Assembly: GCF_009707365.1 (NCBI RefSeq)
Contig: NZ_CP046122.1
Span: 3,658,001 to 3,722,000 of the forward strand
Origin: Microlunatus sp. Gsoil 973
Lineage (GTDB): Bacteria; Actinomycetota; Actinomycetes; Propionibacteriales; Propionibacteriaceae
DNA: 64,000 nucleotides
Reading direction: 5' to 3'
Shown: positions 23,527 to 40,331 of the stretch, piece after piece
How the letters are laid out: the number at the start of each line of letters is the position of its first letter
Position numbering within the stretch: the first letter of the stretch is position 1
Notes under the pieces: model-generated
Seen by the model: only the letters and a program-made list of their open reading frames with translations
Told to the model about the DNA's origin: nothing
Database searches by the model: none
Position numbers and translations under genes: made by a program

Positions 23527-25272
23527 GTGTCGGGTATGGGTGGTGAGGGTGACTCGGGGTACCAGCTGAACTTCCCTGACGCGCCCAAGCTCGAGCTCGA
23601 CGAGCTGATCGACCAGCTGGTCAGCCGAGCGGAGAGCGTCAGGCGGGCGCAGGGCCGACTGAGGAACCTGCTGCGTGCAACCCAGTCCGTTAGCGGCGAC
23701 CTGTCGCTGGAACGGATCCTGCGGCGCATCATCGAGTCCGCCAGGGAGCTCGTCGGTAGCCGCTATGCCGCGCTTGGTGTGATCGGGAATGATCATCACT
23801 TGGAGCAGTTCATCTATGTCGGGATCGACGACCAGTCGGCGACAAAGATCGGGCACCTGCCCGAAGGCAAGGGATTGCTCGGAGCGCTGATCAGTGATCC
23901 GCGGCCAATTCGACTCGACCGGATGAGTGACGATCCGAGGTCGGCGGGTTTCCCAGCGGATCATCCGCCCATGGAATCCTTCCTCGGGGTGCCGATCAGG
24001 ATCCGGGACGAGGTCTACGGGAATCTCTACTTGACCGACAGCGTCAACGGACGGTTCAGCGCAGAAGACGAAGAACTCCTCAGTGCGCTGGCCTCGGCCG
24101 CCGGAACAGCCATCAACAACGCTCGGCTGTATCGCGAGGCCCAACAGGAACACCGCTGGTCCGAGGCGTCCGCGGAGGTGCAGGCACAGTTGCTCAGTAG
24201 CACCGGCGAAGACCCCCTGCGGACCATCGCGCGACGAGCGATTGATGTGTCCGGATCCGATCTGGTGACCGTCAGCCTGGTCGACCCGACCGATGAAGCC
24301 GTGATGGTCGAAGCAGCGTTCGGCCAGGGCGCCGAGGATCTGCTCGGTCGTCGGTTCCCGTTGAACGAGACGATCGCCAGTCAGGTGATCGAGTCCGGAG
24401 AGCCACTGCTGCTGGACAATCCACTGGCTGGTGGTCCGCTGCCCATTGCGAATCTGGCTTTGATCATGGACGCTGGACCGCTCATCGTCGTCCCGCTGCG
24501 GGACGAGGAGCGGACCAGGGGTGCGCTCACACTGATCCGGCGGCGAGGCCGGACCGGATTCACCGACGCAGACGTTCGGATGGCCAGCGGCTTCGCCGCC
24601 CATGCCAGCGTGGCGTTGCAGTTGGCCGATGCCCGGGAGTTCGCCGAGCAGATGGTGATGTTGGAGGAACGCGACAGAATCGCCCGGGATCTTCATGATC
24701 ATGTGATTCAGGAACTGTTCTCTGTCGGCCTGGGGCTGGAGAGCATCGCCGGACATCTCGAGGGATCACCGGACGTCGCCAGGCGGATCATCGGAAAGGT
24801 TGACGAGATCGACCGGGCGATCCGGCGGATCCGCACCAGCATCTTCACACTGCAGGGCGGGCTCATCTCGACGCCCGGGGAGGCGTTGCGGAACCGGATC
24901 CTCCAGATTGCCGGTGAGGTCACACCGCTGCTCGGCTTCGCTCCGGCCGTCTCGTTCACCGGGCTCGTGGATTCCGTGGTCGACGCGTCACTCCTGGACG
25001 ACGTGATCGCCTGCGTCCGGGAGTCGCTGACCAATGTGAGGCGTCACGCCCACGCGTCCTCCGTGTCGATCGACGTCCAGTTGAAGGGGACGAAGCTGAC
25101 CATCCGGGTGGCCGACGACGGTATCGGCATGCCGAAGGACCCCGAGCGCCGAAGCGGCGTCGCCAACCTGGCCACCCGTGCGGAAAAGCGTGGCGGTTCG
25201 CTGCGGATCACTTCGCGCGACGGCGGTGGAACGCTGCTCGAGTGGACGGCGTCGGTCAATGGGCGCAGCTGA
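23527..25272 (+). CDS. DevS/DosS-like GAF-domain sensor histidine kinase
   Basis: 581 residues from GTG 23527 (ATG 23536 is equally possible; no clear ribosome site). Two GAF domains are seen: residues about 60-200 (GSRYAALGVIG, IGHLPEGKGLLG, PMESFLGVPIR) and about 220-375. Then comes HisKA_3 with His about residue 390 in RIARDLHDHVIQELFSVGL, and HATPase_c (ESLTNVRRHAHA, VADDGIGMP). The first GAF closely resembles that of DevS/DosT, which binds haem and senses O2, NO and CO. Neighbouring genes are DosR-regulon types. No cognate regulator is adjacent. Confidence 0.9.
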   Translation: MSGMGGEGDSGYQLNFPDAPKLELDELIDQLVSRAESVRRAQGRLRNLLRATQSVSGDLSLERILRRIIESARELVGSRYAALGVIGNDHHLEQFIYVGIDDQSATKIGHLPEGKGLLGALISDPRPIRLDRMSDDPRSAGFPADHPPMESFLGVPIRIRDEVYGNLYLTDSVNGRFSAEDEELLSALASAAGTAINNARLYREAQQEHRWSEASAEVQAQLLSSTGEDPLRTIARRAIDVSGSDLVTVSLVDPTDEAVMVEAAFGQGAEDLLGRRFPLNETIASQVIESGEPLLLDNPLAGGPLPIANLALIMDAGPLIVVPLRDEERTRGALTLIRRRGRTGFTDADVRMASGFAAHASVALQLADAREFAEQMVMLEERDRIARDLHDHVIQELFSVGLGLESIAGHLEGSPDVARRIIGKVDEIDRAIRRIRTSIFTLQGGLISTPGEALRNRILQIAGEVTPLLGFAPAVSFTGLVDSVVDASLLDDVIACVRESLTNVRRHAHASSVSIDVQLKGTKLTIRVADDGIGMPKDPERRSGVANLATRAEKRGGSLRITSRDGGGTLLEWTASVNGRS

Positions 25273-25293
25273 GCGATACAGGTCGGCACGTCG

Positions 25294-25800
25294 TCAGCGG
25301 TTTGCCTGAAGAACCGTAGAAGCCGTCGCGCTCGGGCCGAGGTGAGCGTCCTGCGGCGCAGGAACAATGACCACGGGTACCGTCGCGGTCTCGGCGCAGT
25401 AGGCGGCGACCGGCGACCCAGGTCGGTGCGGGGCCATATGGTGTCGGCCGATGACCAGCAACTGGGCGTTCTCCGCGGCCCGCACCAGTTCCGGACCCGG
25501 CTCCCCGATCAACTGTGTCAGCGTCCAGCCCGATTCCGGATGGGAGGAGGAGAACTCGAGGTCGATGGTGCGTCGTGCCTGCGCACTCCAGTCGAGTTTG
25601 ACGTCCGGAACCGACACTTCCGTCGGCTGCGAATCCTTGGCCGGATGCACGCAGACGACACTCAGCCGTGCGCCGGTGCGGCGGGCATAGTCACTCGCCC
25701 ACCGAAAGGCAGCCCGGGATGCCGGCGTCGTGGTCAACCCCACCACCACCGACCCATGGAACCGGGCGCTGGTCTCCTTCGCTGACAACGATTGATCCAT
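25294..25800 (-). CDS. Universal stress protein (single domain)
   Basis: 168 residues from ATG 25800. UspA fold: HGSVVVGLTTTPASRAAFRWASDYARRTGA at the N-terminus (about residues 15-45) and LLVIGRHH with PVVIVPAP near the C-terminus. The ATP-binding glycine motif G-2x-G-9x-G-S is degenerate (GRHHMAPHRPG), so nucleotide binding is doubtful. It is convergent with the DosS-like kinase (22 bases) and divergent from the tandem USP gene. It is a full-length paralogue of the truncated USP at 23065. Confidence 0.85.
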   Translation of the reverse strand: MDQSLSAKETSARFHGSVVVGLTTTPASRAAFRWASDYARRTGARLSVVCVHPAKDSQPTEVSVPDVKLDWSAQARRTIDLEFSSSHPESGWTLTQLIGEPGPELVRAAENAQLLVIGRHHMAPHRPGSPVAAYCAETATVPVVIVPAPQDAHLGPSATASTVLQANR

Positions 25801-25857
25801 AACCGCAGCCTGACCCGCCTGGTTCCGTCCTGCTACAGACGTTGGGCCGCCCACCCC

Positions 25858-25932
25858 GGGACCAAGTTCCTCTGTGAGCCACAGAGAAGCACGCAGATGT
25901 GCCCTGACATTGGTCCCGGGTCCCCGGGGACC
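25858..25932. promoter_or_regulatory. DosR-box-like site and a perfect 14-bp palindrome in a USP-USP divergent promoter
   Basis: 25858-25871 reads GGGACCAAGTTCCT, with 10 of 14 positions as in the DosR core. 25919-25932 is the perfect palindrome GGTCCCCGGGGACC, which contains GGGAC half-sites on both strands. Both lie between the starts of the divergent USP genes, where a shared regulator would bind. This is inference from similarity to the mycobacterial motif. Confidence 0.4.
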
Positions 25933-26001
25933 TGTGGACCTAGCACGACGGGCGGCGCACAAGAAGACTTGGTGATCAATGGCACCGACACGGAGTTGAT
26001 C

Positions 26002-26880
26002 ATGACGCACATCACTGTAGGGATCGATGGCTCGACCGGCAGCACCCGAGCACTCGAGTGGGCTGCCGCGGAGAGTTCGTTGACCGGCTGCGATCTGGAG
26101 ATCGTGCACGCTGTCGACCTCCCCAGGACCGGCGGCATCTTCACCAACACAGCGATCGGCGACAAGGCGATCACGGAGATGTCGAGGTTCAGCCAGGACC
26201 TGCTGGACATTGCCGCCCGGCGGGCAGCCGAGGTGGCTCCCGACGTCCGGATGTGGACCCGTACCGAGGTCGGCTCACCGGCCGCCGTGCTGTCCGCCGC
26301 CTCAAGTGATGCCGAAGCGGTCGTCGTTGGCAGCCGAGGGCTCGGTGCGTTCGAGAGCTTTATCGGCTCGGTCAGCGTCAGGGTGGCCACCCGGGCGGGC
26401 TGCCCGGTGTTCGTGATCCCCGACCAGGACACAGAACCGAGTCGCGGCGGACCCATCGTGGTGGGCGTCGACGACTCGGAGTACGGCGCGGCGGCGCTGC
26501 GGTTCGCGTTGCAGGAGGCGCTGCTCCGCAAAACCTCGATCCGTGCGGTCACGGCCTACCAGTTACCGATGGTCAGTGTCCCGCTGCAACCCGGCGTGAT
26601 GACCAGCTTCGAGCAGGACGAACACGAGCGGGCGCTGGCGACGATCGAGAAGTTGCTCGACCAGGTGCGCACCGACGAGACCAACGACGTCAAGACGGAG
26701 TCCGCGGTCGTACAGGGTCCGACGGTCGAGGGGATCCTGGCCCACGCCAACGACGCACAACTGATTGTTGTGGGTTCGCACGGCCGGGGCATGGTACGTC
26801 GTCTGCTGCTGGGATCAGTGAGCCGCCGGCTGCTGTACGAGACGGACCGCCCGGTTGCCGTCGTCGATCTGCCGCACTGA
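26002..26880 (+). CDS. Tandem-domain universal stress protein
   Basis: 292 residues with two UspA domains. Domain 1: residues 1-145 (ITVGIDGSTGSTRALEWAA, then GSRGLGAFESFIGSVS). Domain 2: about 152-292 (IVVGVDDSEYGAAALRFAL, then GSHGRGMVRRLLLGSVS). Both carry the G-2x-G-9x-G-S ATP-binding pattern, as in M. tuberculosis Rv2623-like proteins, which bind ATP and affect growth in hypoxia. It starts at ATG 26002. It is followed by a strong terminator hairpin. Confidence 0.93.
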   Translation: MTHITVGIDGSTGSTRALEWAAAESSLTGCDLEIVHAVDLPRTGGIFTNTAIGDKAITEMSRFSQDLLDIAARRAAEVAPDVRMWTRTEVGSPAAVLSAASSDAEAVVVGSRGLGAFESFIGSVSVRVATRAGCPVFVIPDQDTEPSRGGPIVVGVDDSEYGAAALRFALQEALLRKTSIRAVTAYQLPMVSVPLQPGVMTSFEQDEHERALATIEKLLDQVRTDETNDVKTESAVVQGPTVEGILAHANDAQLIVVGSHGRGMVRRLLLGSVSRRLLYETDRPVAVVDLPH

Positions 26881-26925
26881 CCAACTGGCGGTGATCACGG
26901 GAGGGTTTGAGAACCGGTGCGACGT

Positions 26926-26958
26926 GCCGGGCGGGCGGTCAGGGGTCGCCCGCCCGGC
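26926..26958 (+). terminator. GC-rich terminator hairpin after the tandem USP
   Basis: Perfect 12-base arms GCCGGGCGGGCG and CGCCCGCCCGGC with a 9-base loop, 45 bases after the USP stop. It has no U-tract but is very stable. It separates the USP transcript from the convergent Hsp20 gene. Confidence 0.8.
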
Positions 26959-27117
26959 AGACGCAACACCGCCGATGATCACGACCGGATCGGGGCCGGT
27001 GAACGGGTAGCCCGGCCAACAGTTCACCCGATATACGCACGCGGGTGAGGGCTGATGGTCTTACGGGCTTCGTCAACCCGCCCTCGATCGCCGGTCACCG
27101 ACCATGTCTGGCCCCGG

Positions 27118-27540
27118 TCAGCTGGTGATCGCCTTGGATTCCCGCTGTTCGGACAGGACCTGGATCTTGCGGGGCCTGGCCTTCTCCGACACCGGGATCC
27201 GGATCCGGAGTACGCCGTCGGTGTAGGACGCGGAGATCTGGTCCAGGTCAAGGTTGTCGCCGAGGATCAGCTGCCGGCTGAACACGCCACGCGGCCGCTC
27301 GGCGGCGATCTGTTCGCCGGGCATCTCCGAGACCGGTCGTTCGGCCCCGATGGTCAACACGTTGCGTTCGACGTCGAGATCGATCGACTCCGGGTCGATC
27401 CCCGGCAGATCGAACTCGACGTGGAAGGTGTCGCCGTCGCGCCATGCATCCATCGGCATGACGGCCGGTCGGGCAGACGTGCCGAACACCTGTTGAGTAA
27501 GGCGATCGAATTCGCGGAAGGGGTCGGTACGCATCAACAT
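27118..27540 (-). CDS. Hsp20/alpha-crystallin small heat-shock protein
   Basis: 140 residues from ATG 27540, which has GGAGGTG 8 bases upstream. N-terminal [20 protein letters not shown], as in HspX/Hsp18-type proteins. The alpha-crystallin domain spans about residues 35-125 ([46 protein letters not shown]). The C-terminal IxI-type segment is KIQVL, for oligomer assembly. It is an ATP-independent holdase. It is divergent from a broken hspR-like gene, and close to DosS/USP genes as in dormancy regulons. Confidence 0.92.
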
Positions 27541-27611
27541 CCTTGGTTCACCTCCATCGGATCTACAGAAACATCGATGCGCAACCTCCACTAATCTGTG
27601 GAGTTATCATA

Positions 27612-29214: not shown

Positions 29215-29925
29215 CTAGATCGGAAGGTCAGCATCGCCGGAGAACCGGTGCGCACCGCGTCGGGCCTTGGTGGCAAGGTAGTTCCGGTTCTCGGCCGACA
29301 GGTGCAGCCCGGTGGGAATCTGGTGCTCGACGGTGATGCCCAGCCGGTCGAGTTGCCGGGCCTTATCCGGATTGTTGCTGAGCAGCCTGATCACCGGCAC
29401 GCCGAGCGCGAACAGCATCTGGGCGGCGACCGTGTAATCACGTTCGTCCTCGGAGTGATTGAGGGCGAGGTTGGCCTGGTAGGTGTCGAGTCCTTGATCC
29501 TGAAGAAGATAGGCGTCGAGCTTGTTGTACAGGCCGATGCCGCGCCCCTCCTGGCGAAGGTAGAGGATGTAGCCGCCCGCCTCGGCGATCCGGTGGATCG
29601 CTTCGTGCAACTGCGGTCCGCAGTCGCAGCGCAGGCTGCCGAACACGTCACCGGTCAGGCACTCGCTGTGCGGCCGCACCAGCGGCGGGCGGCGCGAACC
29701 ATCCCGGAGCGCCGGCCCGTCGAAGCGCAGCGCGACGTGTTCGCCAAGATCGACCAGATCATCGAAGCTGATCATGGTCGCCCGGGTCTGCACAGTTCCG
29801 ACGGAGATCGGGATGTCAACGGCGGTCCGGATCTGTGCCGCGGGCAACGCCGTTGGGGCCGGGCCGGCCGTCGGAACTCGTGGTTCATCGGTCGGCTCGA
29901 CGTCGCGTCGGGTCTGTGCAGTCAT
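29215..29925 (-). CDS. ribA: GTP cyclohydrolase II
   Basis: 236 residues from ATG 29925, with AAGGAGG 5 bases upstream. Stand-alone RibA without the RibB part. Zinc-binding cysteines are in SECLTGDVFGSLRCDCGPQL (about residues 86-105), and the catalytic segment RQEGRGIGLYNKL is about 120-132, with LSNNPDKARQL and TGLHLSAENRNYL following. It converts GTP to 2,5-diamino-6-ribosylamino-pyrimidinone 5'-phosphate. It is the last gene of a seven-gene operon with glycosyltransferase, methyltransferase and pterin-synthase-like genes but no other riboflavin genes, so it may feed a specialised product rather than riboflavin. Confidence 0.92.
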   Translation of the reverse strand: MTAQTRRDVEPTDEPRVPTAGPAPTALPAAQIRTAVDIPISVGTVQTRATMISFDDLVDLGEHVALRFDGPALRDGSRRPPLVRPHSECLTGDVFGSLRCDCGPQLHEAIHRIAEAGGYILYLRQEGRGIGLYNKLDAYLLQDQGLDTYQANLALNHSEDERDYTVAAQMLFALGVPVIRLLSNNPDKARQLDRLGITVEHQIPTGLHLSAENRNYLATKARRGAHRFSGDADLPI

Positions 29926-30697
29926 CGGGGCCTCCTTGCCGGTTCGACGAATCGTTGACCTGCGCATCGAGTGATGGCCACATTGCTACCCGCTCCGGTG
30001 AGTTGAGCGAGTAGTGCAGCACTGTCATGCGGCCGACCCGCTCGGTACGCGCCAGACAACGGTGCAGTGCCGACCGACTGTGCAGCCGGTCGTCATATAC
30101 CCAGCGGGGCGCCCGGTCATCGCTGACGAAGACCGGCGCGACGGCCAGCCGTATCCAGTCGACGAGGCCGGTGCGGAGCAGAGCCGTGTTCAGCACGCCG
30201 CCTCCTTCGACCAGCAGCCGTCCGCCTCCGCGCCGGCCCAGGTCGGCGGCAACTCCGGCGAGGTCGATCGGATCCCCGCCGTCGACGACGCCCGCAGTGG
30301 TGTTCCGCAGTTGTTCCCGCAGTCCCGGGACGGCGGATGACGGGGCGTAGACCAGGGTCGGGGTATCGGGTGTCTGGAAGATCGCCGCTGCCGGGTCGAG
30401 TCGGCCCGATGACGTGATGACGACCCGGATCGGTGAGGCCGGGCGGCCGCTCGCGATGCGTCGGTCCCGCCGGTCGGCGCTCCGGACCAGCAGCCGGGGA
30501 TTGTCGGCTCGTACGGTCTGAGCACCGACCATGAGTGCGTCGCAGTCCGCGCGCAGCGCATCAACTGCGTCGAAATCCTCGGCACCGGAGAGGATGAGCC
30601 GGCTCGCGTGATCGCCCGTCGGCCGATAGCGATCGAGATACCCGTCCAGTGATATCGCCGCACTGATCACGACAGACGGGATCGACAGCTCAGTCAT
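29885..30697 (-). CDS. RibD C-terminal (pyrimidine reductase) domain protein
   Basis: 270 residues, dihydrofolate-reductase-like fold. N-terminal VVISAAISLDGYLD, NADPH and substrate region DALMVGAQTVRADNPRLLVR (about residues 53-72), ASPIRVVITSSGRLD, then LLVEGGGVLNTALL and a C-terminal strand. It lacks the RibD deaminase half. RibA plus a reductase alone would give the ribitylamino-pyrimidine before deamination. It overlaps RibA by 41 bases and the upstream membrane gene by 8 bases, so it is co-translated. Its last ~40 residues are not typical, and the gene may once have ended earlier. Confidence 0.88.
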   Translation of the reverse strand: MTELSIPSVVISAAISLDGYLDRYRPTGDHASRLILSGAEDFDAVDALRADCDALMVGAQTVRADNPRLLVRSADRRDRRIASGRPASPIRVVITSSGRLDPAAAIFQTPDTPTLVYAPSSAVPGLREQLRNTTAGVVDGGDPIDLAGVAADLGRRGGGRLLVEGGGVLNTALLRTGLVDWIRLAVAPVFVSDDRAPRWVYDDRLHSRSALHRCLARTERVGRMTVLHYSLNSPERVAMWPSLDAQVNDSSNRQGGPDDCTDPTRRRADR

Positions 30698-31700
30698 CGA
30701 CGGTGATCTCCCGCGCGACGGGTCCTGTTATCGGTCGGCCGCGCCGTGCCGCCGTACGGCGCCGGCCGGCCAGCAGAACCACGACTCCGGGCGACACGGC
30801 CACCAGCGTAAGCACGCCGTAGGCCGTCGATGCGGCAAGACCCGGACCCGCGCCGATCCCGGCCAGAGCGAACAGCCAACTCGCGGCGCCCTCCCGCGGC
30901 CCCCATCCGCCGATGTTCGTGGGCAGCGCGGAGGCGACCAGGATGAGCAGGGCCAGTGGGACCAACTGGCGCACCGGTGCCCCGACGCCGACTGCTCGCG
31001 CGGCGATCAACAGGACAAGGACGTGACCGGCGATCACCAGTGTGGACAGCGAAACGATCGGAGCCAGTGACGTCGGGTGGAGCAGTCCCCGGAGATCGGC
31101 CATCGCCGGCCGCCGGACTCGGCGCAGACCACCGACCACCAGGATCCCGAGCAGCAGGACGCCCAGGCCGCCCAGCACGGGGTACAGCGTGCGGTCGCCG
31201 AGACCGCGCACCAGACCGGTGATCGGCCCGGAGTGCAGCAGGAGGCAGATTCCGATCACCCCGACGGTGAGAGCGACCTGTACGGCCTGACCGAAAGAGC
31301 GCTCCCAGGCGACCGAGCGGATCGCCGGGCCTCGGGCTGCTGTGCGGCCGCCGTGCCGCAACGCTCGCTCGACGTCGCCGACGACGCCACCGGGCAGCAG
31401 TCCGTTGAGCAGTTGCGACCGGTAGTAGGCGGCCAGTGCATCCGGCAGGCGGAGCCGTACGCCCAGCGCCCGCGCCACGGCGGTCCAGCGGGCGGCCGCG
31501 GCAGCCGTGGTGATCATGGTCACCGCCACGGCGGCCAGCAGCGCCGACGGCGTGATCGAGCGGAGCCCGGTCAGCAGAGCGCCGTCGCCCTGCCGGATGA
31601 TCACGACGGCAAGCACACCGATGCCCAGCAGAACGCGCATCAGCGGCCACCACCGAACGGCACGCCGACGCGCCGCCCGAACCATCGTCGGAATCGGCAT
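30690..31700 (-). CDS. Lysylphosphatidylglycerol synthase TM-region / flippase-like membrane protein
   Basis: 336 residues with about eight membrane helices (first about residues 15-35). The UPF0104/AglD2/YbhN-like pattern is present: YYRSQLLNGLLPGGVVGDVERAL (about residues 95-117) and a late NIGGWGPREGAASWLFA. The soluble aminoacyl-transferase domain of MprF is absent, so a lipid flippase or translocase role is more likely than lysyl transfer. ATG 31700 was chosen for AAAGGAG upstream. Its place between methyltransferase and RibD genes suggests that the operon product is lipid-linked. Confidence 0.83.
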   Translation of the reverse strand: MPIPTMVRAARRRAVRWWPLMRVLLGIGVLAVVIIRQGDGALLTGLRSITPSALLAAVAVTMITTAAAAARWTAVARALGVRLRLPDALAAYYRSQLLNGLLPGGVVGDVERALRHGGRTAARGPAIRSVAWERSFGQAVQVALTVGVIGICLLLHSGPITGLVRGLGDRTLYPVLGGLGVLLLGILVVGGLRRVRRPAMADLRGLLHPTSLAPIVSLSTLVIAGHVLVLLIAARAVGVGAPVRQLVPLALLILVASALPTNIGGWGPREGAASWLFALAGIGAGPGLAASTAYGVLTLVAVSPGVVVLLAGRRRTAARRGRPITGPVAREITVDD

Positions 31701-31788
31701 CCGGTCCCCCCGCTCCTTTCTCGTTACACGAGGCAACCGGCCGATGGGTTCAGCCGGTGCTCGGGACGAGGCGCCAGCGCGTGAGGCC

Positions 31789-32733
31789 TCACGGGATCGT
31801 CAACGGAAGGGCGAGCAGGTCGGTGTGCGGGATGAGGGCGCGTAACCGGCCGACGGCCAGCTGCGCTTGTCGACGTTCGAGCCAACCAGACAGCAGCCGA
31901 ACCAGGTCGGGTTCCTGCTCCTGGGCGGCACCGACCCACCCGTCCAGCCATGCGGCGAGCAGGTCCCGGTCCGCCTCACGCGCGGCATCGAGCCGCCACG
32001 GTGTGGTTCTGGTGATCACCGTCAGGCCGGCTGCGGTCAGCACGGCCGACGCCCGCGATGCCGCGTCCGGGCCCAGCCGGTTGGTGAAGCCCTCGCTGTC
32101 GAAGCTCCGGTCGTCACAGCTCCGGTCGTCACAGCTCCGGTCGTCACAGCTCCGGCCATTACGGCCCGGCACCGGCCGCCGTTGGTGATCGTCGAACGCA
32201 GCGGCCACTCGCTCGTCGATCCCCGGCTCGGCCGGATCCAGGCCGGCGCCACCGGTGACCGTCAGCGGGATCAGGACGGGGCACCGTGCGTTGACCACCG
32301 TGGCCATCAGTCTCGCGAGCTGATCACCGGTGAGCATGTCCAGCAGTGCCGAGGCGGTGATCAGCGACGCACCACCGAGTTGCTCGGGCCTGAGATCAGC
32401 GAGGTCGCCGGGTCGGGTCTCGAAGGTGACATCGGTCCGGTTTGCTGTCGCGGCGGTGAGCAGGTCGAGGTCCCGGTCGTAGAGGACCCAGTGCTGCGGA
32501 GCCGGCAGCAGCGCCGCGGCCCAGCGCATCATCGATCCGGAACCGGCGCCGAGGTCGTGGATGACCAGCGGTCGGCGCACGGACTCCGCCAGCAGCCCGG
32601 CGACCAGGCCGATCAGCTCCCGCGACCGTGCTGCCGCGTCGGCGGCCTCGCGCAGGTTGAGCCAGCTCAGGTCGAGGCCGGCGGCCAGCGGTGGATCCGA
32701 CTGTCCCGATGGCAGCGTCGCAGTCTGGGTCAC
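31789..32733 (-). CDS. Class I SAM-dependent methyltransferase
   Basis: 314 residues from GTG 32733, whose GTGA overlaps the glycosyltransferase stop; GAGGG lies upstream. SAM motif I HDLGAGSGSMMRWAA about residue 60, acidic motif II LYDRDLDLL, and ASALLDMLTGDQLARL. An in-frame repeat of R-S-C-D-D units (about residues 190-210), encoded by a 15-base tandem repeat, inserts a charged loop in the second half. The substrate is unknown; co-operon genes suggest a glycosylated pyrimidine or pterin. Confidence 0.85.
   Translation of the reverse strand: MTQTATLPSGQSDPPLAAGLDLSWLNLREAADAAARSRELIGLVAGLLAESVRRPLVIHDLGAGSGSMMRWAAALLPAPQHWVLYDRDLDLLTAATANRTDVTFETRPGDLADLRPEQLGGASLITASALLDMLTGDQLARLMATVVNARCPVLIPLTVTGGAGLDPAEPGIDERVAAAFDDHQRRPVPGRNGRSCDDRSCDDRSCDDRSFDSEGFTNRLGPDAASRASAVLTAAGLTVITRTTPWRLDAAREADRDLLAAWLDGWVGAAQEQEPDLVRLLSGWLERRQAQLAVGRLRALIPHTDLLALPLTIP
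32103..32162 (-). repeat. 15-bp in-frame tandem repeat inside the methyltransferase gene
   Basis: Unit AGCTCCGGTCGTCAC at 32103, 32118 and 32133, identical three times, with a degenerate fourth copy at 32148-32162. It encodes R-S-C-D-D repeated on the minus strand. Identical copies suggest recent slippage expansion. Confidence 0.93.
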
Positions 32734-33863
32734 GCCGTTCCCTCGGCTGTTTGCAGCCCACTCGGTGGGTGACCCAGTACGGGGCAGGTGAGGACCTGCC
32801 GGACGGTGTCGTCCCACGTCCCCAACGTTTCCCGGCGGACCAGGGCGCGCCGTCGCAGCTCGGTCCGCAGTGGTGGCTGGGTCAGCCAGGTACGCAGTGC
32901 CGTCGCCCATGCCGACCGATCAACGGGAACCAGCAGGCCGGGCGGCCCCTGTTCCGTGCGGCCGACCGCCTCTGGGAGTCCGCCGACCTCTGACACCAGT
33001 ACCGGAAGCCCGTGAGCCAGGGCCTCGGTGGCGACCATTCCCCAGGTCTCCAGCCGAGATGGGAGCACCAGGAGATCGGCGTGGCGGTAGGCGAGGTCGA
33101 GCTCCTGGCCGCTGCAGACCCCTGCCAGGGTCACCCGGTCCGCGAGGCCCTGGGTGGACAGCCGATCCCGGAACTCCTGGACGAATTGAGGGTCATGGTG
33201 CAGCGATCCGACGCACTGCAACTGCCAGCTCAGGTCCCGGCAGTCGATCAACGCCTCGCAGAGGAGATCCAGCCCCTTGAGTCGGGTGACGGGTGCGACG
33301 CAGAGCAGCTGTCCGCCGCCGGGGCTGCCCGGTGCGATAGCGGCCGGGTTGACCCCGGGCGGGGCGACGACCACACGGTCGGGGTCCAGCCGGTACTGGT
33401 CGAGCAGCTGCCCCCGGGTCCACCTGCTGGTCGTGATCACACCGGCGACACTGTTCAGCACCGCGGCTTCGTCCCGCTGATGATCGGCGAGTTCGGCCCG
33501 TGACCCGCTCGGGATCCCGGCCGGCGGGACTCCGAGCGGAAGGTGGATCAGCGCCACGATCTGCAGCCGGTTCGCCGCTGGGACCACCACTTCCGGCGAA
33601 CAGGAGGCGATGAGGCCGTCGATGACGACGGGGTCACCGTCGGGAAGACTGCGCAACAGCCGATCCAGTCCGGCAAGGTCGTCCCGGGTCGGCCGTGGCC
33701 AGCGCGATCCGACCGGGTGGACATCAACCCCAACCCCGGTATCGGATAGCGCTGCTGCCAGCCGCTGGTCGTAGACGTTGCCGCCGCTGACCCGGTCCGG
33801 TTCGTCGAAGCCGGCCGGCACGACGATTTGCACGGCCGGTGCCCGATCAGAGCTTCTTGACAT
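32730..33863 (-). CDS. Glycosyltransferase family 4 (GT-B fold)
   Basis: 377 residues. N-terminal VVPAGFDEPDRVSGGNVYDQRL (acceptor-side Gly loop), linker VAPPGVNPAAI about residue 165, donor-site VAPVTRLKGLDLL about residue 190, and LVLPSRLETWGMVATEALAHGLPV about residues 268-291 with the E-x7-E motif. It transfers a sugar from a nucleotide donor with retention. It overlaps the pterin-synthase-like gene by 17 bases and the methyltransferase by 4, firmly inside the operon. Confidence 0.9.
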   Translation of the reverse strand: MSRSSDRAPAVQIVVPAGFDEPDRVSGGNVYDQRLAAALSDTGVGVDVHPVGSRWPRPTRDDLAGLDRLLRSLPDGDPVVIDGLIASCSPEVVVPAANRLQIVALIHLPLGVPPAGIPSGSRAELADHQRDEAAVLNSVAGVITTSRWTRGQLLDQYRLDPDRVVVAPPGVNPAAIAPGSPGGGQLLCVAPVTRLKGLDLLCEALIDCRDLSWQLQCVGSLHHDPQFVQEFRDRLSTQGLADRVTLAGVCSGQELDLAYRHADLLVLPSRLETWGMVATEALAHGLPVLVSEVGGLPEAVGRTEQGPPGLLVPVDRSAWATALRTWLTQPPLRTELRRRALVRRETLGTWDDTVRQVLTCPVLGHPPSGLQTAEGTA

Positions 33864-34278
33864 ATCCGGCGCGCGCCGATGGCGACTCGTGCAACACCAC
33901 CTCGATGGCGCTCAACCGGCCCGCGTCGGTCGGCCCGCCGGTCGACGTACCGGTTGACGTGCCGGTGTCGCTGGTGGCGAGTTGATCGGCCAGCCCGTCG
34001 GCGATGTATCGGGCCAGTACCTCCGTGGTGGTGTTGATGCCGTCGAACTCGGGCAGGTCGTCGAGGTTGCGGTAGTTCAGTCCGGACAGCACCTGCTGCA
34101 GGGCGGCAGCCGCGGCGGTCATGTCGATGACGGTGCCGTCGGGCTTGAGTTCCGGGCTGACGAAGCTCGCCTCCACGGCGAACGTCGCGCCATGGAGGCC
34201 CTGGGCCGGACCGAACTGCTCGCCGCGAAGGCGGTGGGCGATCATGATGTGATCACTCACGGTGACACTGAAGGTCAT
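33847..34278 (-). CDS. 6-pyruvoyl-tetrahydropterin synthase / QueD homologue with altered active site
   Basis: 143 residues, T-fold enzyme. IMIAHRLRG near the N-terminus keeps one zinc His (H15) and GLHGATF keeps the second (H29). The canonical third His is Ala here (HGA, not HGH), and the usual catalytic Cys before it is replaced (GPAQGLHG). NTTTEVLARYIADGL and VVLHES near the C-terminus match the family. An acidic D9/H10 pair could substitute in metal binding. It overlaps both neighbours (ATGA with the dehydrogenase). With RibA in the same operon it may act on a GTP-derived pyrimidine or pterin. Confidence 0.87.
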   Translation of the reverse strand: MTFSVTVSDHIMIAHRLRGEQFGPAQGLHGATFAVEASFVSPELKPDGTVIDMTAAAAALQQVLSGLNYRNLDDLPEFDGINTTTEVLARYIADGLADQLATSDTGTSTGTSTGGPTDAGRLSAIEVVLHESPSARAGYVKKL

Positions 34279-35296
34279 CGGTGCTCCTCCTGCAGATAGG
34301 GCTCGGGGTCAGCGGCCCGGCCGTATTCGATCAGATGGCAGATGCCGGGCAGTTGCCCGCCGGCAAGGTTCTCAATCACGGTCGGCAGCTCGTCGAACGG
34401 CCAGGTGTCGGTGATGATCGCCTCGAAGGCCGGGTCACGAAGCAGGCGCAGTGCAAGCGCCAGTCGGTCTGTCGTCGACCGCGATCCCCGCCGTGCCGCA
34501 GCCACCGTACCGACCTGGCTGGACCTGATCGTCAGGCGCCGGTGATGGAAGGCGCCGCCGAGTTTCAGGTCGACCTCGTTGTCTCCGTACCAGCTCAACT
34601 CCACCACCCTGCCCTCCGGGGCGAGCAGTTCCAGTGACCGTTGCAGTCCGGCCGCAGTTGCGCTGGTGTGGACGACGAGGTCGAGGTCGGTGGGTGCGTC
34701 GTCGGGTGTTGCGAACGCCACGCCGAGCTGCGCCGCAACCTCCGCACGAGCCGGGTTGATGTCGATCAGGGTCGTCTCGACCCCGGGATCCCCGCCAGCA
34801 ACCGGGCGACACAGCAGCCGACCATGCCGGCTCCGATGCAGGCCACCCGATCCCCGATCAGCGGCGCCGCGTCCCAGAGTGCGTTGACTGCGGTCTCGAC
34901 CGTGCCGGCCAGCGCGGCCCGGCGGCCGGGCACGCCGTCCGGGACCGGAAGCACGGCCGCCGCCGGCACCACGTAGCTGGTCTGGTGCGGATGGAGGCAG
35001 AAGACCGTCTGTCCGAGGAGGTGATCAGGTCCGTCCTCCACCGTCCCGACCGAGAGGTAGCCGTACGCGGTCGGGCCCGGAAAGTCGCCCTGCTGGAACG
35101 GCGCCCTCATCGTGTCGTATTGATCGACCGGTACCCGACCGCGGAAGACCAGAGTCTCGGTTCCGGCACTGATCGCCGACCATCGGCTGCGGACCAGAAC
35201 GTCGGACGGGCCGGGTCGTGGCAGGTCGACAGTACGAATCTCGCCGACACCGGGTTCGCGTACCCAGAAGGACTGTGCGGTGGTGGTGAACGACAC
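34275..35296 (-). pseudogene. Zinc-binding alcohol dehydrogenase, frameshifted
   Basis: First gene of the RibA operon. From GTG 35296 (GAGGG 8 bases upstream) it reads FWVREPGVGEIRTVDLPRPG, TETLVFRG and the Rossmann segment VACIGAGMVGCCVARLL. It stops after a G run (plus-strand C4 at 34781-34784). The C-terminal half, FATPDDAPTDLDLVVHTSAT to the end, is in another frame. The span is 3n+2 bases, so adding one G restores about 340 residues. It belongs to the MDR family, but most classical zinc ligands are absent. Whether the gene is truly broken needs read support. Confidence 0.82.
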
Positions 35297-35318
35297 CGGG
35301 TGTTCCCTCGTCTCTCTT

Positions 35319-35363
35319 GACAGAGTCACTTCGGACAGGGTCATTCTGGACAGAGTCGCTTCG
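35319..35363. repeat. Three imperfect 15-bp repeats in a divergent promoter
   Basis: GACAGAGTCACTTCG, GACAGGGTCATTCTG and GACAGAGTCGCTTCG lie head to tail between the dehydrogenase start (35296) and the phosphatidyltransferase start (35424). The copies agree at 11 or more of 15 positions. They may be iterons for a regulator of the whole cluster. Confidence 0.75.
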
Positions 35364-35423
35364 CGGGGCTTTCATCCGGGGCCCGACCGGTTTGGACCGT
35401 CACAGAAGAGTACGGAGGTCGGG

Positions 35424-36194
35424 GTGCCGAACGTTCATCTGCGACCGCTTGGGCCGAGCAGCCGGACTCACAGTCTCGGGCAGATCAGGCCGTTTGGCGA
35501 CCCCCTCGTCGGCCTTGCCGGTCAGCTGGTGGTCCTCCTGGCCTTGGTCGGGGCGGGTCTGGGACCGGTCGGCTGGTTGGCCGGTTTCGGCTACGGAGCG
35601 GGTGTGACGGTGTTGTTGGTTCGCGCTCTGGTCCGGTCCGGCGGTCGCCGGTTGGGGCCTGCGGACAAGGTCACCCTGGCGCGTTCCACGCTGGTGGGTG
35701 GGGTCCTCGCCCTGGTGGTCAGCGATATCGCGTCGCCCGGTTCCGCGTCGCCCGCGTCAGTTGTCGTGCTGGTCACGCTCGCGTCGGCGGCACTCATCCT
35801 GGACGGGGTCGACGGCCGGGTGGCGCGGCGAACCGGCACGGTCTCGGCCCTCGGAGCGCGCTTCGACATGGAGGTGGACTCCATGTTGATACTGATCCTC
35901 AGTGTCCACGCGGTCTGGTCGGTCGGCTGGTGGGTGTTGATCATCGGCGCGGCCAGGTTCCTGTTCCTGGCGGCCGGTCTGATCGTGCCCTGGATGCGCG
36001 GGGACCTGCCGTTCCGGTATTGGGCCAAGGTGGTCGCGGTCGTCCAGGGTGTCGTTCTCACCGTGGTCGCCGCCGGGATTCTGCCGCGCCCTGTTGAGAC
36101 CGTCCTGTGCCTGGCAGCAGCCGCGTTGTTGGCCGAGTCGTTCGGGCGATCCGTCTGGTGGCTGGCCGCTCATCGCAAGGTCACCGACTCCTAG
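35424..36194 (+). CDS. CDP-alcohol phosphatidyltransferase
   Basis: 256 residues from GTG 35424, with GGAGG 5 bases upstream. The catalytic motif is complete: D-G-x2-A-R-x8-G-x3-D-x3-D in the segment about residues 129-154 (ILDGVDGRVARR, then GARFDMEVD). About six membrane helices. It joins an alcohol to a CDP-activated lipid or to a similar activated head group. It is divergent from the RibA operon across 127 bases holding three repeats, so it is probably co-regulated. It would allow the operon product to be attached to a lipid. Confidence 0.9.
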   Translation: MPNVHLRPLGPSSRTHSLGQIRPFGDPLVGLAGQLVVLLALVGAGLGPVGWLAGFGYGAGVTVLLVRALVRSGGRRLGPADKVTLARSTLVGGVLALVVSDIASPGSASPASVVVLVTLASAALILDGVDGRVARRTGTVSALGARFDMEVDSMLILILSVHAVWSVGWWVLIIGAARFLFLAAGLIVPWMRGDLPFRYWAKVVAVVQGVVLTVVAAGILPRPVETVLCLAAAALLAESFGRSVWWLAAHRKVTDS

Positions 36195-36690: not shown

Positions 36691-38826
36691 TCAGGCGGTG
36701 CTGGCGTCGTAACGGGCGAAGCTGCGGGTGAAGGTCGCGGCACCGGCGGTCGTTGCACGCAGGTCGGTGGCGTAGCGCAGCAGCTCCGACTGTGGGACCT
36801 CGGCTCGGATCACGGTTCGGCCGGGTGCGGCGATCTCCGTTCCGAGGACTCGGCCACGGCGGCCGGACAGGTCGGCGAGGACTGCGCCGAGATACTGGTC
36901 GGGGATGCGTACGGCGACCTCGTCGAGCGGCTCGAGCACCACCGTTCCGGCGGCTGCTGCCGCTTCGCGCATGGCCAGCGCACCGGCGCTCTGGAACGCC
37001 GCGTCGGAGGAGTCGACGCTGTGCGCCTTGCCGTCGACGAGAGTCGCCCTGATGTCGATCAGCGGATTCCTGGCCTCGGAGACCCCACGCTCCATCGCCT
37101 CCCGGATGCCCTTCTCGACGCTCGCCACGTACTGGCGTGGCACTGCCCCGCCGACGACCTTCGACACGAACTCGAATCCCGCGCCGCGGGGCAACGGCTC
37201 GAACTGGACCTGGCAGATCGCGTACTGGCCGTGGCCGCCGGACTGTTTGACGTGCCGACCGGTGACAGTGACGGGCCGGGCCATCGTCTCCCGCAGCGGA
37301 ACCCGGACCGGTTCGGTGTCGATCTCGGCGCCGCCGGACCGCAGGCGGGAGAGCAGCAGGTCGGCGTGTGCCTCACCCATGCACCACAGCACGATCTGGT
37401 GGGTCTCCGGATTGCGCTCCAGTCGCAGCGTCGGGTCGGCCGCCACCAGCCTGGCGAGATTCCTGACCAGAGCGTCCTCGTCGGCGCGGGCATGCGGTAC
37501 GACGGCGACCGGCAGCTGCGGCTCGGGCAGTTCCCAGGCCTCGAGCAGGAGCGGATGGTCGACCGCCGAGATCGTGTCGCCGGTCTCTGCGCTGGCGAGT
37601 TTGGTCAGCGCGCAGATGTCGCCGGCGACGGCGAAGTCGACCTCCCGCAGTGTGACGCCCAGCGGGCTGTAGATGTGCGCGACCCGATCATCGTCGTCGT
37701 GCCCGATTTCGTCGGCCGGCTGCCCGTCCTCAGCCGGCGCGTCCGCCCGCGCCGGGTGATGGCCGCAGATGTGCACGCTGGTGTCCGGTCGCAGGGTGCC
37801 CGAGAAGACCCGGACCAGCGACACGCGTCCCACGTAGGCGTCGGCGGAGGTGTGTACGACTTCGGCGGCCAGAGGTCCCCCCGGGTCGGAGGTCAACTCC
37901 GGATGATCACTCCCGTCGATCATGCTGACCGGCGGGAGCGGATGTTCCAACGGCGACGGAAATCCCCCGACCAGCAGTTCGAGGATGGCGTCCAGGCCGA
38001 TGCCTTCGGTGGCGCAGACCGGTATCACCGGATAGAAGCTCCCCCGGGTGACCGCCGTCTCCAGATCCTTGATCAGCGTGCTCACGTCGACGTCCTCACC
38101 GTCGAGGTAGCGGTCCATCAGCGTCTCGTCCTCGGACTGCTCGATGATCCCTTCGATGAGCGTCGCCCTTGACTCATCCGCATTCTGTGGTGCACCATCG
38201 CTCGGCGTCCTGGACAGCAGTCCGTAGAGGTCGGTCAGAGTGCCGTTGTCACGGATCGGCAGATAGAGCGGCGCAACACCGTCGCCGAAGACCTGTTGGC
38301 AGACGGCGATGGTGGCTTCCAGATCGGCACGTGGATGGTCACACCGGGTGACGACCACGGCGCGGGGCATGCCGACGGCGGCACATTCCTCCCATTCGGC
38401 GATGGTGGCGGGATCAATCGCACCCTCGCCGCCGTGCTGACCGGACACCTCGGACGCCGAGATCACGAAAAGGGCCGCATCGGCGGCCCGCAGCCCGGCA
38501 CGCAACTCGCCCACGAAGTCGGCGTAGCCCGGGGTGTCGACGAGGTTGATCTTGACGTCGTTGTGAACAAGTGGCGCAACAGCCAGCGAGACGGACCGGT
38601 GCTGCCGGATCGCCGCCGGATCATGATCACACACGGTGTTGCCGTCCGGGATGGTGCCGGAGCGGGTGATCACCCCGGCCCTGGCGAGCAGCGCCTCGAC
38701 GAGTGTTGTCTTGCCCGAGCCCGACGGGCCGACCAATGCCACGTTCCGTACGCCGGCCGGATCGACTGCGGCGAGCGTGGACGACCGGCCCTTCCGGCCG
38801 GTGGTGGCCTCAGCCTTGAGTGCCAT
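36691..38826 (-). CDS. Elongation factor G-like protein (EF-G2)
   Basis: 711 residues from ATG 38826, with GGAGG upstream. G domain: P-loop VGPSGSGKTTLVEALL about residue 30 (canonical EF-G has GHVDHGKTT), VDTPGYADFVGEL about residue 85, and VVTRCDHP where NKxD is expected. Then EF-G domains II-V (GGHGQYAICQVQFEPLP in domain IV, and PDQYLGAVLADLSGRRGRVLG in domain V). The altered P-loop and NKxD agree with the mycobacterial EF-G2 subgroup (MSMEG_6535 type), which lacks translocase activity and affects growth in stationary phase. Confidence 0.9.
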   Translation of the reverse strand: MALKAEATTGRKGRSSTLAAVDPAGVRNVALVGPSGSGKTTLVEALLARAGVITRSGTIPDGNTVCDHDPAAIRQHRSVSLAVAPLVHNDVKINLVDTPGYADFVGELRAGLRAADAALFVISASEVSGQHGGEGAIDPATIAEWEECAAVGMPRAVVVTRCDHPRADLEATIAVCQQVFGDGVAPLYLPIRDNGTLTDLYGLLSRTPSDGAPQNADESRATLIEGIIEQSEDETLMDRYLDGEDVDVSTLIKDLETAVTRGSFYPVIPVCATEGIGLDAILELLVGGFPSPLEHPLPPVSMIDGSDHPELTSDPGGPLAAEVVHTSADAYVGRVSLVRVFSGTLRPDTSVHICGHHPARADAPAEDGQPADEIGHDDDDRVAHIYSPLGVTLREVDFAVAGDICALTKLASAETGDTISAVDHPLLLEAWELPEPQLPVAVVPHARADEDALVRNLARLVAADPTLRLERNPETHQIVLWCMGEAHADLLLSRLRSGGAEIDTEPVRVPLRETMARPVTVTGRHVKQSGGHGQYAICQVQFEPLPRGAGFEFVSKVVGGAVPRQYVASVEKGIREAMERGVSEARNPLIDIRATLVDGKAHSVDSSDAAFQSAGALAMREAAAAAGTVVLEPLDEVAVRIPDQYLGAVLADLSGRRGRVLGTEIAAPGRTVIRAEVPQSELLRYATDLRATTAGAATFTRSFARYDASTA

Positions 38827-38949
38827 GAGCGACCTCCGCGACACGTCATGGACGCCGGCGATCCGGCGTTGGATCTGATGGCCATCACACCCCCGGCGGC
38901 GGCGATTCGCAAGAGTTCCGCGTACCCGGATGCGGGGCGGGCCGCCCTC

Positions 38950-39064
38950 GCACCAGTTCGTCGACCCCGCACCAGTTCGTCGACGCCGCACCAGTTGGTC
39001 GACGCCGCACCAGTTCGTCGACGCCGCACCAGTTGGTCGGCCTCGCACCGGCTGCAACGGGTGC
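38950..39064. repeat. 19-bp tandem repeats in the EF-G2 / Gfo-Idh divergent promoter
   Basis: Five consecutive 19-base units begin with CACCAG at 38951, 38970, 38989, 39008 and 39027, and a degenerate sixth begins at 39046. The unit is GCACCAGTTCGTCGACGCC. Copies differ mainly by C or G in TT(C/G)GTCGA, with order C, C, G, C, G. Each of the first four keeps GTCGAC or GTCGACC. They occupy part of a 392-base gap between divergent starts 38826 and 39219. The rest of that gap holds only G-rich sequence with no gene seen. Confidence 0.92.
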
Positions 39065-39218
39065 GAGGCCGAGTAAAGGGAGCGGGGGCGAGGAAAGGGT
39101 GCGGGAAGGCGCCCGGAGGGCAGGTACTCGATGCCCACACGTTCGAGGAGGGGGTGCGGGACCGGGTCCCCATGGAGGGTGGATGCGGGACAGTGGACGG
39201 CTCTGGAAGGCTGCTGCC

Positions 39219-40331
39219 ATGGGTGAACCACTTCGGCTGGGCATTGTCGGCACCGGCAGCATCTCCCTGCGCGGGTTGCTGCCCCACCTGACGATGGACG
39301 ACGTCCAGGATCGGGTGAACGTGGTGGCAGTCTGCGATCCCGTCCTGGACCGCGCCGAGGCCGCCGCAGCAAAGTTTGAGGTTCCGGCCGCGTACCCCGA
39401 CCTGGAGAGCATGCTCGACGCCGGCGGTCTGGATGCGGTGAGCATCGCGTCGCCGATCGGGCTGCACTTCGAACAGGCGGTGCAGGCGGTCGACGCGGGA
39501 GTGCACGTCCATGTCAACAAAACCATGACGACGACCGTCGCCGAGGCCAGCGATCTCATCTCCCGGGCGGAGCAACGCGGAGTGAAGCTGGTGGCCTCGC
39601 CGGGAGAACTGATCAATCCGCGGTTGCAGCGGATCAAGGATCTGGTTGCCGGCGGCGCGCTGGGCGAGCCGACCTGGGCGGTCACCGGAGCGACCTTCGG
39701 CCGCTATCACGAGGAGGAGGCCGGGGTACGCCTCGGCGACGATCCTCTGTCGAATGTCAACCCTGCCTGGTATTTCCGCAAACCCGGTGGTGGGCCGCTC
39801 TACGACATGACTGTGTACGGGCTGCATGCCCTGACCGCTGTTGTCGGTCCGGCGAAACGCGTCACCGCACTCTCCGGAGTGCGGATCGGCGAGCGCGAGT
39901 TCCGCGGTCAACTACTGCCCACCGACATGGACGATCAGACGATGATGATCATCGACTTCGGTGATGCCTTCTTCGCCTACGTGTACGGTGTCGCCGCCGG
40001 CAGCCTGCCCAACGTCGGCCGCCCGCTGATCTTCGGGACCGACGGCGTGATCAATGGCGCCACCCTCAACGGGGAGATCATCGACTACCCAGGTCGCGAG
40101 ATCGCCGAGAGCCACGGCTACACCTCACCCCTGCCCCACGTGGTTGGTGATCATCGCCTGATGGAGGAGGCCCACGTCTTCGAGGACGTGATGCAACTGG
40201 TGGACTGGGTCCGTGACGGGGTTCCGACGGTGGCAACGGCCGAACACGCACGTCACGTGATCGAGATCATCGAGGCCGGCTACCGTTCGGCGGCGACGGG
40301 ACAGGTGCAGGGGTTGACTACGACCTTCTAG
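39219..40331 (+). CDS. Gfo/Idh/MocA family oxidoreductase
   Basis: 370 residues from ATG 39219. Rossmann N-terminus LRLGIVGTGSISLRGLLPHL (residues 5-24), then SIASPIGLHFEQAV. The usual E-K-P motif is HVNKTMTTT here, keeping the Lys. The C-terminal beta-sheet domain holds GGGPLYDMTVYGLHAL about residue 190 with candidate catalytic Asp and His. It is an NAD(P)-dependent sugar or cyclitol dehydrogenase of unknown substrate. It reads out of the 19-bp repeat region. Confidence 0.9.
   Translation: MGEPLRLGIVGTGSISLRGLLPHLTMDDVQDRVNVVAVCDPVLDRAEAAAAKFEVPAAYPDLESMLDAGGLDAVSIASPIGLHFEQAVQAVDAGVHVHVNKTMTTTVAEASDLISRAEQRGVKLVASPGELINPRLQRIKDLVAGGALGEPTWAVTGATFGRYHEEEAGVRLGDDPLSNVNPAWYFRKPGGGPLYDMTVYGLHALTAVVGPAKRVTALSGVRIGEREFRGQLLPTDMDDQTMMIIDFGDAFFAYVYGVAAGSLPNVGRPLIFGTDGVINGATLNGEIIDYPGREIAESHGYTSPLPHVVGDHRLMEEAHVFEDVMQLVDWVRDGVPTVATAEHARHVIEIIEAGYRSAATGQVQGLTTTF

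Follow-up and report, generated by a model that had tools for sequence, protein, structure and literature searches.

A conserved gene cluster with GTP cyclohydrolase II, a pyrimidine reductase and a PTPS-IV protein in Microlunatus sp. Gsoil 973 and in relatives from two phyla

PTPS-IV is a subfamily of COG0720 that has been set apart by its FGPAQ motif and by a GTP cyclohydrolase, 'FolE2', in its gene neighbourhood; the excerpt of that account available to us gives no Pfam family for the cyclohydrolase and states neither a function nor a full pathway (PMC5445326). An excerpt of a second paper holds an unpublished remark tying archaeal PTPS-IV to a role in coenzyme F420 (PMC5041015), which misfits most of the genomes tested here. 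We examined positions 29215-36194 of a 64,000-nt stretch of DNA, hereafter the window, from the 4.91-Mb single-contig genome of Microlunatus sp. Gsoil 973. Pfam and NCBIfam scans of the proteins encoded there identified a GTP cyclohydrolase II (GCHII; RibA), a RibD_C-type pyrimidine reductase, a flippase-like membrane protein, a methyltransferase, a GT4 glycosyltransferase, a T-fold PTPS protein, an MDR dehydrogenase and a CDP-alcohol phosphatidyltransferase (Table 1). The PTPS protein shares the FGPAQ motif and matches SCO6650 of Streptomyces coelicolor (PDB 3d7j) at 112 bits, and by its sequence it belongs to PTPS-IV.

Parts of this gene set have counterparts in other described systems. Archaeal ArfA/ArfB and bacterial BrbF also involve a formyl-pyrimidine intermediate that is cleared by a formamidase, giving 2,5-diamino-6-ribosylamino-4(3H)-pyrimidinone 5'-phosphate (DARoPP), and BrbF, first annotated as a creatininase, is a creatininase-family formamidase for which biochemical work in S. 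meliloti and in Brucella has shown deformylation of the formyl intermediate (PMC9478397, excerpt). The present cluster differs in that a GCHII variant would make the formyl compound and that its product would not be meant for riboflavin, and the ArfB model matches its creatininase-family proteins at 37 to 40 bits (cut-off 180). The S. coelicolor GCHII paralogues are a parallel for a RibA lacking the tyrosine discussed below. One of them, SCO6655, reportedly releases the formyl compound and has Met in place of Tyr105; Met occupies this position in 3/3 Streptomyces loci of our set that hold RibA (L100, L126, L135), a comparison made through other Streptomyces loci and not those of S. coelicolor itself, and in 6/6 loci of one genus (g39). 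The window RibA differs from these in being of the Tyr type. A creatininase-family gene accompanying a non-Tyr RibA was not found described in the literature we searched.

The riboflavin operon likewise combines RibA with a RibD-type reductase. It differs from the window cluster, among whose proteins Pfam found no deaminase, RibB (DHBP synthase), RibE (riboflavin synthase) or RibH (lumazine synthase); in their place the cluster has genes for PTPS, GT4, a methyltransferase and membrane proteins. The toxoflavin pathway also starts from GCHII, but it is not known to include PTPS, GT4 or CDP-alcohol transferase. An earlier reading of the same letters (the original prediction) had called the pathway undescribed. 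The literature searched indeed gave no account of the whole cluster, of the two forms that its entry step takes or of what it makes, but the PTPS-IV subfamily, the neighbouring 'FolE2' and the SCO6650 structure were already public.

The observation of the original prediction is confirmed as a whole and reaches further than the prediction could show; its interpretation is partly supported. All the genes it named stand in place with Pfam support, the methyltransferase below cut-off (the fold model of a relative, from locus L107, is confidently that of a class I methyltransferase). All families of the set are present; as a correction, the dehydrogenase is split over two frames. We consider it probable that the cluster encodes a dedicated GTP-derived pathway, apart from riboflavin, queuosine, folate and F420, which would lead to a ribityl-pyrimidine or pterin that has escaped deamination, receives methyl and sugar groups and is processed at the membrane.

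To compare relatives, we assembled 156 loci chosen by the presence of PTPS-IV, 108 of them actinobacterial (window included) and 48 proteobacterial; the latter comprise 8 from a scan of named genomes and 40 from the orders of Polynucleobacter G639 and Azorhizobium G640 (35 and 5). On the core tree described below, the rows nearest to the window are named actinobacteria. Gene families were counted by profile searches. Several loci are shorter than 10 kb or ended by contig ends, so all absence counts are upper bounds, and with gene calling crude in GC-rich DNA and recurrent neighbours partly Pfam-scanned, further cluster genes may be missed. The dehydrogenase, PTPS and GT4 genes keep one order on one strand in 144/156 loci (98/108 actinobacterial and 46/48 proteobacterial), and the grouping is therefore not due to chance. 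The original prediction had named an unconserved gene order as a sign against it; the conservation it expected across actinobacteria is borne out and extends to Proteobacteria. Both the dehydrogenase and GT4 occur in 106/108 actinobacterial and 48/48 proteobacterial loci, and the methyltransferase in 78/108 and 42/48. RibA is found in 83/108 and 17/48 and RibD_C in 76/108 and 30/48 (one weak). The membrane partners divide by phylum: CDP-alcohol transferase (95/108; 5/48) and the flippase-like protein (98/108; 2/48) on one side, an OpgH-like GT2 (0/108; 36/48) and cytochrome b561 (0/108; 25/48) on the other. Creatininase-family genes occur in 31/108 and 2/48 loci.

PTPS-IV matches of at least 91 bits were found in 27/245 genomes of the window's order, its own genome counted, with four more at 21 to 23 bits. 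Across the phylum, 10/396 genomes had matches of at least 130 bits, and the 70 other matching genomes scored at most 99 bits and resemble ordinary QueD. The subfamily is present in 9/300 genomes of the order of Polynucleobacter (G639 counted) and in 88/297 of the alphaproteobacterial order of Azorhizobium (G640 counted). Named genomes yielded at least 585 confirmed relatives, and the best 80 of these, which were taken further, include Streptomyces, Micromonospora, Amycolatopsis, Actinomadura, Nocardioides, Azorhizobium, Polynucleobacter, Zwartia and Xanthomonas. The gene set appears widespread, occurring in two phyla among bacteria from soil and water. Its spread (88/297 and 27/245 in two orders) and its presence in a 2-Mb Polynucleobacter genome make a trivial role unlikely.

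The entry step is where the loci differ in an ordered way. The window RibA scored 250.8 bits against NCBIfam NF001591 (cut-off 148) and missed the stricter TIGR00505 (185 vs 205.85); it has the zinc Cys motif of the family, and its motif HSECLTGDVFGSLRCDCG is intact. It has Tyr at the column that alignment to 2bz0 sets as equivalent to Tyr105 of the E. coli enzyme, and the window has no creatininase-family gene. The same combination holds for the actinobacterial loci with a Tyr-type RibA, 52/52 of which are without a creatininase-family gene; 31/31 with a non-Tyr RibA (His 17, Met 10, Gln 2, Cys 1, Leu 1) have one. A first tabulation (106 loci plus the window) had given the same pattern. The 25/108 actinobacterial loci without RibA likewise hold no creatininase-family gene, and 13/17 proteobacterial loci with RibA fit the rule. 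The creatininase-family protein of L107 matches PF02633 at 206.5 bits; no BrbF model was apparent in the library used for scoring. Because of this pattern, and because BrbF acts on the formyl compound, the Tyr state and the non-Tyr state with creatininase look like two routes to the same DARoPP.

The second enzyme, the RibD_C reductase, was compared with archaeal-type DARoPP reductases: it shows no deaminase domain, and its best NCBIfam model is TIGR01508, below cut-off (122.1 vs 186.45 bits). The nearest PDB entries to the family profile are 5xux ('Conserved protein', an archaeal Rib7) and 6p8c, named 2,5-diamino-6-ribosylamino-4(3H)-pyrimidinone 5'-phosphate reductase; reductases of the 6p8c type act before deamination. 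RibD_C is present in 51/52 Tyr-type actinobacterial loci, and in L064, L066 and L120 a single open frame covers it together with RibA (for L120, both domains were confirmed). Cluster-type RibD_C of at least 248 bits was found in 20/20 cluster genomes tested, 17 of which do not have it in the locus (16 of the 24 non-Tyr loci without it, plus L058); two of the 20 hold two copies, and all further matches scored at most 97 bits. In 29 genomes without PTPS-IV, cluster-type RibD_C was found in 2 (306 and 261 bits) and the others scored at most 110 bits. Neither of these two genomes had another cluster gene within the 17-18 kb around RibD_C, and in Actinomadura livida (G1239) the gene likewise has no cluster gene beside it.

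We also considered whether creatininase replaces RibD_C in non-Tyr loci. Such a replacement would account for the 24/31 loci of this kind without RibD_C, and in genome G267 the RibD_C has its own RibA neighbour; the idea is weakened by the strong RibD_C found elsewhere in 16/16 such genomes tested (of 24). In G267 (9.2 Mb), genes for a Tyr-type RibA and a cluster-type RibD_C stand side by side in divergent orientation (L208), outside the PTPS-IV locus, which itself has Met-type RibA and creatininase.

Several observations weigh against a dedicated pathway of this form. RibA is missing from 25/108 actinobacterial and 31/48 proteobacterial loci (some of them short or contig-cut), and RibD_C from 24/31 non-Tyr actinobacterial loci, being present in 7; the G267 copy, beside its own Tyr-type RibA, may serve something else. 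Among 20 of the 25 actinobacterial genomes whose locus has no RibA, a second full GCHII lies elsewhere in 9, while 10 have a single GCHII and 1 has none. The absence of a deaminase covers the window's cluster proteins and not those of relatives, which were not searched for one, and the window copy of the cluster may be inactive, its dehydrogenase frame being broken. The best NCBIfam model for the creatininase is the mycofactocin protein MftE (133 bits, below the cut-off of 172). Four of the 17 proteobacterial RibA loci break the rule, L166 and L204 by having Tyr with a distant creatininase and L182 and L183 by having Leu without creatininase. On a core tree of 104 loci, 79 of them typed for the Tyr state (L142 was left out, its RibA ended by a contig end), this state changes 3 times, giving 2 to 3 independent pairs, all concordant (sign test p 0.5). 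On a RibA tree of 100 rows there are 3 changes, 1 of them forced; one pair alone has good support, and about 60% of its pairings agree. With so few switches on either tree, we reject the statement that the rule is proven by many independent events. Taken as a description, the Tyr/creatininase association is strong; taken as a test with phylogenetic independence, it is weak.

As for the exceptions themselves, the creatininase-family genes that follow the Tyr-type RibA in L166 and L204 score 106 and 112 bits; the presence of CDP-alcohol transferase and flippase genes in L166 as well suggests a transfer. The RibA-like proteins of L182 and L183 score low (137 and 139 bits) and possibly have another activity. 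The proteobacterial cluster RibA of L112 and L124 is of the PRK08815 type, and the N-terminus of the L112 protein has a weak DHBP-synthase match, below cut-off.

The broken frame raises the question of whether the cluster in Microlunatus sp. Gsoil 973 is a decaying remnant, which we regard as possible but doubtful. The dehydrogenase is near full-length in one frame in 149/154 loci that have the gene, and the window belongs with L140, L104, L179 and L093 (the last ended by a contig end) to the five with a partial one. The two halves of the window gene are read in different frames, which diverge close to a short run of G at about 34780. Consistent with decay, the window row forms the longest end branch on the core tree (1.03 vs a median of 0.21, its dehydrogenase left out of the row), its PTPS departs at five of 47 near-invariant columns (rank 5 of 107), and only 2/10 same-genus genomes among those listed have a strong PTPS-IV match. 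Against this, the other window genes are open, with 0 to 2 departures each at near-invariant columns, and the G run leaves a sequencing error possible, so that the break may be either a mutation or such an error. As the dehydrogenase alone is clearly broken, we reject wholesale decay.

A different explanation keeps the conserved core and makes its supply loose: the dehydrogenase, PTPS, GT4 and methyltransferase would use another substrate, such as a normal pterin, and RibA and RibD_C would be loosely attached. The loci give this some footing, with RibA absent in 56/156 and RibD_C in 50/156 and the dehydrogenase and GT4 nearly always present (PTPS being present by the choice of loci). We nevertheless find it improbable, given the genome-level counts for cluster-type RibD_C (20/20 vs 2/29) and the RibA-RibD_C fusions within the cluster. 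A second GCHII is also kept in 4/5 proteobacterial cluster genomes tested, one of just 2 Mb.

Since RibA and RibD_C are riboflavin-type enzymes, the cluster could also serve to make additional riboflavin, for instance flavins to be secreted; that flavins for secretion may form a pool of their own is discussed in work on S. meliloti (PMC9478397, excerpt). In the window's genome, a complete rib operon (RibD with its deaminase, riboflavin synthase, RibBA and lumazine synthase) stands together at L067:6656-10244, about 4.612-4.615 Mb. The remark in the original prediction that no other riboflavin genes are present thus holds for the locus but not for the genome, and the cluster does not contain the genome's only ribA or ribD, which the prediction had named as a sign against it. 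The window RibA is one of two GCHII genes in the genome, and the window RibD_C is the second of 16 PF01872 matches, behind the housekeeping RibD. With the ring-forming genes and deaminase not among the window cluster proteins and all together elsewhere, we reject a riboflavin duplicate as very unlikely. Coenzyme F420 also begins from the ribityl-pyrimidine branch, and the remark on archaeal PTPS-IV cited above would favour it, but the FO synthase CofH (E 1e-20) has matches in 7/24 cluster genomes and none in the other 17, the window's included, and we reject this role as having hardly any likelihood.

The PTPS protein itself argues against an ordinary enzyme of its family. We compared residue states of 156 PTPS-IV members, one row being gapped at most columns, with three QueD-type sequences taken from other genomes (L038-L040). 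The FGPAQ positions are held by F in 154, G in 155, P in 154, A in 155 and Q in 152 of the 156 rows (one gap row). The first zinc His is kept in 155/155 members; the third is replaced in 155/155 (Ala 154, Val 1), turning HGH into HGA in the window, and the catalytic Cys is Ala in 155/155, so that the QueD CxxxHGH motif is lost. The His of the QueD Asp-His pair is mostly Tyr (152), and the pterin-anchoring Glu of the family is kept in 156/156. The paper on the SCO6650 structure is said to report neither zinc, nor the catalytic triad, nor PTPS activity. The common fold family and the Pfam PTPS match would speak for a misannotated PTPS within an ordinary set of enzymes for queuosine, folate or biopterin. 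Against this stand the loss of the motif and a QueD score of 41.6 bits (NCBIfam cut-off 89.25), and we reject it as scarcely credible.

A dedicated pathway could run as follows; gene content, conservation, residue states and co-occurrence carry it, and we infer every reaction, those of steps 3 to 5 most. In step 1, GTP would be converted to DARoPP by a Tyr105-type RibA alone, which is the window version, or a non-Tyr RibA would halt at the formyl compound and a creatininase-family formamidase would complete the conversion. In step 2, RibD_C would reduce the ribosyl to a ribityl chain; the 2-amino group would stay because the window's cluster proteins include no deaminase domain. In step 3, PTPS-IV would use its invariant Glu to bind the 2-amino-4-oxo pyrimidine; together with the MDR dehydrogenase it would build or redox-modify a side chain or a second, pterin-like ring. 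In step 4, the methyltransferase and GT4 would decorate the product, with ribityl phosphate a fitting GT4 acceptor. Step 5 would be membrane processing, by the CDP-alcohol transferase and flippase-like protein in actinobacteria and by the OpgH-like glycosyltransferase in Proteobacteria, where half of the loci add a b561 cytochrome gene. The claim of the original prediction that RibA and a RibD-type reductase divert GTP apart from riboflavin is supported for the entry steps, and the product is what we infer.

For the later steps, the nearest solved relatives of GT4 by profile are Tll1590 (6kih) and D-inositol 3-phosphate glycosyltransferase (7qsg). Enzymes of this kind accept phosphates of sugars or polyols, and a ribityl phosphate would be similar to these. 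The L107 methyltransferase model is a confident class I fold (mean predicted local distance difference test score 93.8), and a fold search of the PDB for its substrate returned general small-molecule methyltransferases (best template modelling score about 0.6), none specific. The L100 dehydrogenase, like that of the window, is weakly BchC-like (45.3 bits, cut-off 291).

In actinobacteria, the CDP-alcohol transferase gene is divergent beside the dehydrogenase in 75/95 loci, on the same strand in 13 and further off in 7. The OpgH-like gene fills this slot in Proteobacteria, as it too sits divergent beside the dehydrogenase, in 32/36 loci that have it. Since the membrane partners differ between the phyla, the part common to both would be glycosylation with a membrane step. 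The original prediction proposed a lipid or nucleoside-lipid product; with the CDP-alcohol transferase and flippase mainly actinobacterial, a lipid anchor is one option, and a possibility mainly there. Beside the OpgH-like gene, L096 and L112 have a ChvA/NdvA-like glucan ABC exporter (850 bits in L096, cut-off 733), which suggests glycan export.

A bolder and quite tentative idea, unlikely at present, is that the cluster makes a new class of cofactor or surface molecule. This would be a glycoconjugate of a ribityl-pterin that has not been deaminated and so retains the 2-amino group of guanine, related as a sister to flavins and deazaflavins. Its synthesis would rest on a rewired, zinc-poor T-fold protein, and its entry step would come in two enzymatic versions that can replace each other. 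The molecule would end up on the outer face of the membrane, and in Proteobacteria a cytochrome b561 could supply it with electrons there. If the product does prove to be a novel relative of pterins or flavins, the few known fates of the riboflavin-type pyrimidine would gain a branch. Testable now are the role of SCO6650 and the reason why S. coelicolor keeps a GCHII that reportedly stops at the formyl intermediate.

Table 1. Genes of the cluster, with window coordinates of their open reading frames
Feature	Position	Strand	Evidence
RibA, GTP cyclohydrolase II (GTP_cyclohydro2)	29215..29967	-	Pfam 183 bits; aligned to E. coli GCHII 2bz0
Pyrimidine reductase, RibD_C type, without deaminase domain	29885..30697	-	Pfam 128.5 bits
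Flippase-like polytopic membrane protein, LPG_synthase_TM	30690..31736	-	Pfam 88.2 bits
S-adenosylmethionine (SAM) methyltransferase, Methyltransf_25	31789..32910	-	Pfam 20.8 bits, cut-off 27 not reached
GT4 glycosyltransferase, Glyco_trans_1_4	32730..33863	-	Pfam 82.2 bits
PTPS-IV T-fold protein (SCO6650 family)	33847..34278	-	Pfam PTPS 78.7 bits
MDR dehydrogenase, C-terminal half	34275..34721	-	Pfam/sequence; frame differs from N-terminal half
MDR dehydrogenase, N-terminal half, weakly BchC-like	34766..35344	-	NCBIfam/sequence
CDP-alcohol phosphatidyltransferase, CDP-OH_P_transf	35280..36194	+	Pfam 54.8 bits; divergent from dehydrogenase

The longest same-strand reading frames overlap by 4, 8, 17, 83 and 181 bases, lengths that vary with the choice of start. 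The original prediction gave overlaps of 4-41 bases for most of the genes; the flippase and methyltransferase frames are separated by a 52-base gap, and the dehydrogenase halves do not overlap either. True starts probably lie downstream of the frame start for RibA, whose conserved part begins about 45 residues in, near 32730 for the methyltransferase, and downstream of 35280 for the CDP-alcohol phosphatidyltransferase, which has the motif DGVDGRVAR...GARFDMEVD. The methyltransferase gene holds a perfect 15-bp x 3.5 tandem repeat (32103-32155) encoding a CDDRS repeat. Upstream of the cluster (23527-27591) lie genes for a GAF-GAF-HisKA_3 sensor kinase, a two-domain universal stress protein and Hsp20, a stress- or dormancy-like set. 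The cluster is followed on the minus strand (36691-39372) by the gene for an EF-G paralogue of 893 aa, which has domains II to IV of EF-G as well as its C-terminal domain.

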